Assembly (NCBI GenBank): GCA_017880805.1
Contig: JADGRP010000130.1
Location: 1 to 55,147, forward strand
Reading direction: 5' to 3'
Length of the DNA stretch: 55,147 nt
Origin: Burkholderiales bacterium
GTDB lineage: Bacteria; Pseudomonadota; Gammaproteobacteria; Burkholderiales; Casimicrobiaceae
Part shown: positions 7,976-10,028 of the stretch, one piece after another
How the letters are laid out: each line of letters opens with the position of its first letter
Position numbering within the stretch: the first letter of the stretch is position 1
The notes under the pieces: generated by a model
What the model was told of the DNA's origin: nothing
What the model saw: only the letters and a program-made list of their open reading frames with translations
The model's database searches: none
Made by a program: the position numbers and the translations under genes

Positions 7976-9373
7976 CTAGTGCATTGCTGGTAGCTCGTAC
8001 GGGAACGCGTGCACCCGGAGCCGCGGAAGCCGCTTGCAGAGTATGCGATAGATGTCGAGGTCGAAGGCGGCGCGCGTCGGTGTTTCGAGCAATTCGTGCA
8101 GCGAGCCTTCATCGCCCGCAGTGCCGAGCCAGCACCAGTCCCGAAAAAGATGCACGTCGGTGCGCTCGCCGGTCAGACTTGTTTCCTGAATCGAGATCAT
8201 CCCGTCATAGGGCCACTGTCGCAGCGCATAAGGCGCGAGCGCCTGGCGAAAGCGCTCGTGGTGAGCCTCGAGCGTCTCGGCGCCGACACAGGCGCCCGCG
8301 CACTTCTTGATCTGACGCGCGAAGCATGGACCCGCGCGGCGCTCGAGGCCGAGCAGCCGCCAGCACAATGCAGCCTCGGCGGCGATATTGCGCAGCGTCT
8401 CACGCGCGGCGCGACGAGAGCCGAACGGACCGTACAGGCCGTGCAGTTCCCGCGGTTCGATGACGTCGGCGTGCAAATAATCCGGCGGCGACGGCTCGGC
8501 CGTGACTCCAAGCGCGATCAGGTCGGCGCGCCGCCGCAAGCGCTGGTTGTAGACGGGGAACAGCGATTTGATGAGCTGCGACTCGCGCAACAAGGCGCCG
8601 AGCTCGCCTGCGGTTTCCTCGAATTCGATGCGAACGACCTCGGTTGAAAGGCGCAGATCGTTGGCGCTCCGGTAGTCCGACGAAAAGTGCGACGCGACAC
8701 GTTCGCGGAGATTGATGCTCTTGCCGACGTAAAGAGGCATCGGATTGAGCCCATAGAACCGGTAGATCCCAGGCGACTCCGGAATCGCGTCGAGCGCGCC
8801 CGCGGGGAGGTGCGGCGGGAGGCTTGGCGTGCGCAGAATTCTGGCAACTGCCGCGTCGACTTCGTCCGCCGGCCGATCGCGATAAAGCGCCTGCACGAAC
8901 GCCCACAGGATCCGTGCATCGCCGAGGGCACGATGGCGATCGTGCGAGGGCAGGCGATGGCGCTCGATGAGGCTATCGAGGTTGTGCCGGGCGCCGTCGG
9001 CGAACAAGCGCCGCGACAGCTTGACCGTGCACAGCACCTTGGCGGTGAACGCCTGGCCCAGCCGGCCGAATTCGCGCTTCAGAAAAGCGTAGTCGAAACG
9101 CGCGTTGTGGGCAACGAAAACGCAGCCCGCGATCCTCGTCGCAACCTCGCTGGCGATGTCGGCAAATCGCGGTGCGTTGGCGACCATCGCATTGGTGATT
9201 CCGGTGAGCGCCTGAATCGCGGGAGGGATGCTGCACTCCGGGTTGACCAGGCTGCTCCATTCGGTGGCGCGGTCCCCGTCGACTCGAACGATACCGACTT
9301 CGGTCACCCGGTCACCGGTCGCGGTCATGCCGGTGGTTTCCAGGTCTACGAAGGCGACAGGATTGGGAAACAT
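7976..9373 (-). CDS. DEDDh 3'-5' exonuclease fused to GIY-YIG (UvrC/Cho-like) nuclease
   Basis: N-terminal FVDLETTGMTATGDRVTEVGIV; C-terminal IPESPGIYRFYGLNPMPLYVGKSINLRERVASHF. Confidence 0.92.
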   Translation of the reverse strand: MFPNPVAFVDLETTGMTATGDRVTEVGIVRVDGDRATEWSSLVNPECSIPPAIQALTGITNAMVANAPRFADIASEVATRIAGCVFVAHNARFDYAFLKREFGRLGQAFTAKVLCTVKLSRRLFADGARHNLDSLIERHRLPSHDRHRALGDARILWAFVQALYRDRPADEVDAAVARILRTPSLPPHLPAGALDAIPESPGIYRFYGLNPMPLYVGKSINLRERVASHFSSDYRSANDLRLSTEVVRIEFEETAGELGALLRESQLIKSLFPVYNQRLRRRADLIALGVTAEPSPPDYLHADVIEPRELHGLYGPFGSRRAARETLRNIAAEAALCWRLLGLERRAGPCFARQIKKCAGACVGAETLEAHHERFRQALAPYALRQWPYDGMISIQETSLTGERTDVHLFRDWCWLGTAGDEGSLHELLETPTRAAFDLDIYRILCKRLPRLRVHAFPYELPAMH

Positions 9374-9413
9374 CGATGAAACGCTATCCAGCCATGCGCG
9401 GTATGGAGGCGAC

Positions 9414-9442
9414 TTGACGAACGATCGTTCGTTGGTTATTGT
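9414..9442 (+). promoter_or_regulatory. Predicted sigma70-type promoter of the lexA-like gene (TTGACG-N17-TATTGT)
   Basis: TTGACG at 9414-9419, 17-bp spacer, TATTGT at 9437-9442; predicted TSS about 9449-9450, at the ATG. Confidence 0.6.
9417..9432. promoter_or_regulatory. 16-bp perfect palindrome ACGAACGATCGTTCGT, candidate LexA-like operator O1
   Basis: Exact palindrome containing GAACGATCGTTC (GAAC-N4-GTTC), within the promoter spacer. Confidence 0.7.
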
Positions 9443-9449
9443 ACCCGAT

Positions 9450-10028
9450 ATGTCGAACGATCGTTCCTACTTGGCCGCATTGCAGGATTACTACGCCGCC
9501 CACCGCGCTCTGCCGTCATATTCGTCCATTGGTGCGCTGCTTGGCCTGCGTTCTAAATCCTCGGTCGCTGCCCTGGTGGCGCGGTTCAAGCTTGCGGGCT
9601 TCGTGGAATCGACGCCGGATCGACGCCTGGCGCCGACACGGCAATTTTTCCAGCGTCCACTGGCTGAAGCGCCGGTGCACGCGGGACTGCCCAGCCCGAT
9701 CGATGACGGCCCCGCAGACGCGCTGACCCTCGACGATTATCTCATCGAGCATCCTTCGCGAACGGTGCTGGTGCGGGTCAAGGGCGATTCCATGATCGAC
9801 GTCGGTGTGCTGGACGGCGATCTTGTCGTCGTCGAGAAGCGCGCGGGCGCACGGCGCGGCGAAATCGTGGTCGCGATCGTCGATAACCAGTTTACGCTCA
9901 AGCGTCTCGATCTCGAACGGGGGCGCTTCATCCTGCGTCCGGAGAACAAGGCTTTTCCGGTCATACGACCAGAGGGCGCGCTGGAAATTTTCGGCGTGAT
10001 GGTGGGGCTGGTGCGCAAGGTCGCCTGA
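9450..10028 (+). CDS. LexA-like S24 autoprotease/repressor
   Basis: HTH-like N-terminus PSYSSIGALLGLRSKSSVAALVARFKLAGFV; Ala-Gly candidate cleavage site VHAGLPSP; Ser in VKGDSMIDVGV; catalytic Lys region VAIVDNQFTLKRL. Confidence 0.92.
   Translation: MSNDRSYLAALQDYYAAHRALPSYSSIGALLGLRSKSSVAALVARFKLAGFVESTPDRRLAPTRQFFQRPLAEAPVHAGLPSPIDDGPADALTLDDYLIEHPSRTVLVRVKGDSMIDVGVLDGDLVVVEKRAGARRGEIVVAIVDNQFTLKRLDLERGRFILRPENKAFPVIRPEGALEIFGVMVGLVRKVA
9455..9466. promoter_or_regulatory. Second GAACGATCGTTC palindrome, candidate operator O2, in codons 2-6 of the lexA-like CDS
   Basis: Exact 12-bp repeat of O1, centre-to-centre 36 bp. Confidence 0.65.

Follow-up and report, generated by a model that had tools for sequence, protein, structure and literature searches.

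A non-canonical betaproteobacterial LexA with a predicted second operator in its own first codons as the probable main SOS repressor of a Casimicrobiaceae-like bacterium

The window, i.e. the whole stretch of 55,147 nucleotides analysed here, carries a lexA gene (product P0001) and, divergently oriented on the opposite strand, a gene for an exonuclease fused to a Cho-like nuclease. The region between the two start codons holds the lexA promoter and a palindrome, and an exact copy of the core of this palindrome is embedded in the beginning of the lexA reading frame. The coordinates of these features are given in Table 1, together with the observations that support them.

Table 1. Features of the lexA locus, in positions of the window
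Feature	Position	Strand	Basis
lexA -35 element TTGACG	9414..9419	+	promoter scan; TTGA immediately 5' of the box in 73 of 77 lexA loci
Operator 1 (O1), predicted: 16-bp palindrome, core GAACGATCGTTC at 9419-9430	9417..9432	.	overlaps -35 and fills spacer; GAAC-N4-GTTC here in 76 of 80 named orthologues and in the window
-10 element TATTGT at 9437-9442 (+); TATTGTA reads TACAAT on the - strand	9437..9443	.	promoter scan
Operator 2 (O2), predicted: GAACGATCGTTC within lexA codons 2-6	9455..9466	.	codon conservation among orthologues
lexA (P0001), non-canonical betaproteobacterial type, 192 aa; winged helix-turn-helix ~2-62, S24 76-185	9450..10028	+	Pfam, TIGR00498, structure matches
Ala78-Gly79 self-cleavage site codons (predicted)	9681..9686	+	A78 and G79 invariant in 18 family members
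Catalytic Ser114 codon (predicted)	9789..9791	+	invariant in 18-member alignment
Catalytic Lys151 codon (predicted)	9900..9902	+	invariant in 18-member alignment
Divergent gene: DEDDh (DnaQ-like) exonuclease fused to GIY-YIG/Cho-like nuclease	7976..9373	-	Pfam RNase_T 3.3e-32, GIY-YIG 3.3e-5; PRK07883/Cho models

The two hexamers of the lexA promoter are separated by 17 nucleotides and represent the sole sigma-70-like match in a scan of positions 9300-9560, where 0.1 is expected. The initial annotation had proposed this promoter, and the scan bears out its coordinates. It had also placed a 16-bp palindrome in the spacer; ACGAACGATCGTTCGT is indeed a perfect palindrome, but the box starts inside the -35 hexamer, on its final base, and O1 hence overlaps the -35 element as well as the spacer. 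The exact second copy of GAACGATCGTTC lies where it had been annotated, 36 bp from the first (centre to centre). Two exact copies in the 55-kb window are far more than chance would give (0.01 expected), and shuffling reproduced the count in 0 of 100 cases. The GAAC-N4-GTTC form had been likened to the Bacillus-type box rather than to the CTG-N10-CAG box, in agreement with the lack of any CTG-N10-CAG or CTGT-N8-ACAG match within 9150-9550. The -10 stretch TATTGTA has TANNNTA symmetry and could act on both strands.

The survey of lexA promoters covered 80 named orthologues found in GTDB genomes. Conservation of the palindrome upstream of orthologues, the lack of which the initial annotation had named as one possible refutation of its proposal, is widespread: GAAC-N4-GTTC is present in 76 promoters, nearly always right after TTGA, with ~0.004 expected per 310 bp. 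The other four have GTACG-type arms in an unchanged layout, and three of them are named Methylophilaceae. In Methylophilaceae-type orthologues (L154, L155, L159, L162), GTACGTTCGTAC-like operators stand at the equivalent point of the promoter, with the arms changed from GAAC to GTAC within the class. In the short-promoter class (59 loci), the -10 element always ends 6-9 nt before the ATG, and no locus displays a Shine-Dalgarno-like ribosome-binding motif in front of it. On these grounds the lexA mRNA looks leaderless, which is the simplest reading of the arrangement.

The start codon of the divergent nuclease gene lies 46 bp from O1, and among 22 loci of the closest clade, 18 have the gene adjacent to and divergent from lexA. 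Since cho of E. coli belongs to the SOS genes, control of the nuclease gene from the common operators is likely, and TACAAT on the minus strand is a possible candidate for its -10 element. This minus-strand reading would put O2 near the -35 element of the nuclease gene and O1 at its start, so that O2 might serve mainly the nuclease promoter and not lexA. We consider such a role unlikely, as the promoter scan gave no minus-strand promoter, L091, L094-L096 and Sulfuricella-type loci have O2 but not the nuclease, and L103 and L104 have the nuclease but not O2. The idea that O2 exists for the nuclease was rejected because the presence and absence of the two do not co-vary.

The assignment of O2 to lexA itself draws on the codons that it spans. 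The bases of O2, codons 3-5 (AAC GAT CGT) among them, are identical in all 21 close orthologues, silent positions included, against a background in the same genes of 30% GAT among Asp codons and 12% CGT among Arg codons. Just outside the box, the next base can differ between these orthologues (TCC/TCT), and O1 and O2 are 30-33 bp apart in 24 of 25 loci, the window alone being an outlier with 36 bp. This pattern points to selection on O2 at the DNA level. The palindrome could otherwise be a by-product of the N-terminal peptide MSNDRS, which is conserved in the clade and might, without codon constraint, encode it by chance; the fixed silent positions, the variable flanking base and the constant spacing make this explanation quite improbable. 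Sister clades with other N-termini have lost the peptide and O2 together, and the two are therefore not fully separable. Because many other clades of orthologues are without O2, it is the trait of a clade and not a requirement.

The protein encoded by lexA combines an S24 domain (Pfam S24, E 1.2e-23) containing a predicted Ser/Lys dyad with an Ala-Gly site between the domains; all of these residues had been recognised in the initial annotation. Its AlphaFold model (pLDDT 84) displays an H-H-H-E-E winged helix at residues 2-62, with a pLDDT of 83-94 in this block, and the match of the N-terminal domain to PF01726 is marginal (E 0.047). By HMM match the protein aligns over its full length with solved LexA chains, and its best Foldseek matches are LexA, with LexA-DNA and LexA-RecA structures coming first. 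Model, Foldseek and HMM thus agree on an N-terminal winged helix of the LexA type. Against the NCBIfam equivalog TIGR00498 the protein scores 91.5 bits, under the cut-off of 110.95, for which reason we call it a non-canonical LexA, as the initial annotation had anticipated. Judged by its sequence and predicted structure, it is a true LexA, albeit not the standard proteobacterial one.

The box is not confined to the lexA locus. Beyond the two copies in the window, the 3.9-Mb assembly holds one further exact copy of GAACGATCGTTC; this third copy (L001:1501-1512, G000:C50:2062) lies >100 bp before the start of an MFS transporter ORF, with nothing SOS-like next to it. The remaining near-matches in this genome are mostly inside genes. 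The genome-wide count of GAACG-N2-CGTTC (8 sites) does not exceed that of a reversed-pattern control (17) and was rejected as proof of a regulon, so that the case for one rests on position and conservation. A GAAC box stands directly before recA (L013) and another before a gene for a UvrD-like helicase (L007, L214). Among 30 genomes in which the sequence upstream of recA could be read, most catalogue genomes being metagenome-assembled (MAGs), the box precedes recA in 12 of the 15 that possess this LexA and in 2 of the 15 that do not (Fisher p 7e-4, with relatedness ignored). Both exceptions (G005, G016) are fragmented MAGs from the same genus or family, in which the contig with lexA may be missing. 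At the recA genes of three distant relatives that do have this LexA (G029, G038, G040), no exact box was found. The box is also located before uvrB in four relatives (G008, G009, G014, G015) and before ftsK in one (G010). As a universal target uvrB was rejected, since it has the box in these four genomes only and the uvrB of the present genome has none upstream. Genera of the same family with a single, standard LexA show no GAAC box at recA; CTG-N10-CAG is found near recA in two of them and at uvrB in three.

This genome encodes a second LexA, on contig C264 (G000:C264:27040-27639, - strand; L018 / L269:12026-12745), which passes the LexA cut-off with 229.6 bits. A search for a canonical LexA elsewhere, as had been suggested, thus does yield another LexA, but neither of the two uses the CTG box. 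In relatives, LexA of the C264 type heads a lexA2-imuA-imuB group, where imuA was named by reading the sequence and has no Pfam match, and a 20-bp palindrome, TACCGTA-N6-TACGGTA, follows the -10 element of lexA2. The same palindrome, perfect or near-perfect, stands directly before dnaE2 in six relatives (L251, L252, L255, L257, L258, L264; at about 1501 in L252, L255, L257 and L258), where dnaE2 is apart from the lexA2-imuA-imuB group. In the present genome the C264 gene sits beside surE with a degenerate TACCGTA-N6-TACGGTA operator, and neither imuB nor dnaE2 was found in the assembly, which is 94% complete with 6% contamination and leaves their absence uncertain. This LexA2 is an apparent orphan, kept without its imuA-imuB/dnaE2 partners and with a decayed operator.

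The second LexA raises the question of which of the two governs the SOS response. The LexA of the window might be an accessory repressor that acts only on its own gene and the adjacent nuclease, with the response left to another LexA, given that the C264 protein clears the cut-off and that two lexA regulons cohabit in P. putida (PMC3901139). We regard this as highly improbable, because in this genome the GAAC box stands at both recA and the UvrD-like helicase gene, recA is without CTG-N10-CAG, and the C264 protein belongs to the imuA-imuB-linked type, whose own operator lies before lexA2 and dnaE2 in the relatives and has degenerated here. Of the second, autoregulated SOS-like circuit proposed in the initial annotation, the LexA-type repressor with a box kept at its own promoter therefore stands, whereas the notion of a side circuit does not.

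In our assessment, the probability that the LexA of the window is the main SOS repressor, a non-canonical betaproteobacterial LexA working through O1 and O2 and RecA-triggered self-cleavage, is roughly 0.9. It is very probably autoregulated. A LexA dimer on O1 would cover the -35 element and spacer of its own promoter and block RNA polymerase. Repression would be strengthened by a further dimer bound to O2, which lies immediately beyond the putative leaderless start and, in most relatives, some three turns of the helix downstream of O1. Upon DNA damage, RecA filaments would promote self-cleavage of LexA at Ala78-Gly79 by means of Ser114 and Lys151, and lexA, recA and the UvrD-like helicase gene would be derepressed, as would uvrB and ftsK in some relatives. 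The divergent exonuclease/Cho-like gene would probably follow.

A non-canonical LexA class of Betaproteobacteria that binds GAACG-N2-CGTTC and regulates lexA and recA was reportedly described by Sanchez-Alberola et al. in 2015, and its operator is said to resemble the Bacillus box by convergence. The window's lexA is a new member of this published divergent-box class. It carries GAACG-N2-CGTTC upstream of its own gene, and its product falls in the tree among Sulfuricella, Gallionellaceae and Methylophilaceae orthologues, in a clade with Gallionellaceae/Nitrosomonadales LexA; the regulation of SOS genes such as recA is indicated by operator position. In a tree without a fixed root, whose rows include Gallionellaceae, Nitrotoga, Sulfuricella and Methylovorus but not S. 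lithotrophicus LexA itself, it is split from the CTG-box LexAs at 98% SH-aLRT. Both marks of the standard beta/gammaproteobacterial LexA, a TIGR00498 score above cut-off and a CTGT-N8-ACAG operator, are lacking. The Sideroxydans/Gallionella non-canonical LexA has the same operator and orthologues in the same tree; unlike it, the present protein comes from another lineage (Casimicrobiaceae-like kin), and its locus has a second operator in the first codons and a divergent exonuclease-GIY-YIG gene. The GAAC-N4-GTTC operator is shared with the Cheo box of Bacillus subtilis LexA (DinR), which belongs to a different branch. E. coli LexA has the same winged helix-turn-helix and S24 domain with Ala-Gly, Ser and Lys, but its operator is CTGT-N8-ACAG and the two proteins are ~26% identical in a structural alignment. 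Several operators also occur at the promoter of E. coli lexA, a feature that the present locus resembles.

To the published class, the sequences examined here add a predicted operator that lies within codons and is under selection at the DNA level, a probable leaderless arrangement, a nuclease gene paired with lexA and, in relatives, a division between two LexAs. The little-sampled class is thereby extended to an uncultured soil/groundwater betaproteobacterial lineage, with the core of a regulon visible from operator positions. With an operator within codons and a putative leaderless start, the locus lends itself to a clean test of self-tuning by a repressor gene.

The two-LexA arrangement of the relatives bears on the evolutionary change of LexA motifs. 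We consider it fairly probable that the SOS response of this family is split, the non-canonical LexA (GAACG-N2-CGTTC) controlling recombination and excision repair and LexA2 (TACCGTA-N6-TACGGTA) controlling only itself, imuA-imuB and dnaE2 mutagenesis. LexA2 of P. putida offers a parallel to lexA2 of the relatives (PMC3901139, PMC5261740): there, too, one of two LexAs is tied to imuA-imuB(-dnaE2) (LexA1/LexA2; Abella et al. 2004, 2007; PMC3901139). In contrast to P. putida, the partner here is of the non-canonical class, the lexA2 operator is TACCGTA-N6-TACGGTA, and dnaE2 of the relatives is separate from the lexA2-imuA-imuB group and has an operator copy to itself. In one model, duplicated LexAs diverge in motif until one takes over the regulon (PMC8565304). 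If the split is real, it would show in extant bacteria the stage of coexistence predicted by this duplication-divergence model, and the present genome, with its orphan LexA2 and mutagenesis genes not found, would represent the next step.

That the protein is instead a repressor of phage or mobile-element origin (CI/HdiR-like) can practically be discounted: phage S24 repressors have the C-terminal domain in common with LexA, and a related paralogue clade paired with TcmP/DUF5131 looks mobile, whereas the present protein has the LexA-type winged helix and matches LexA over its full length, lambda CI matches it by sequence in the C-terminal domain only, the neighbours read from the ORFs (msrA, the nuclease, a patatin-like gene and a molybdopterin oxidoreductase) are chromosomal, and the orthologues hold the same layout across the clade.

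The paralogous LexA clade (L106, L109, L121, L139, L143, L161, L194) mostly begins with MADDGQY or a similar N-terminus. Its members are divergent from TcmP (TIGR04474) across a common GAAC box, with a DUF5131 stretch in L194. Some genomes harbor two copies, as if a mobile SOS-controlled cassette carried its own LexA.
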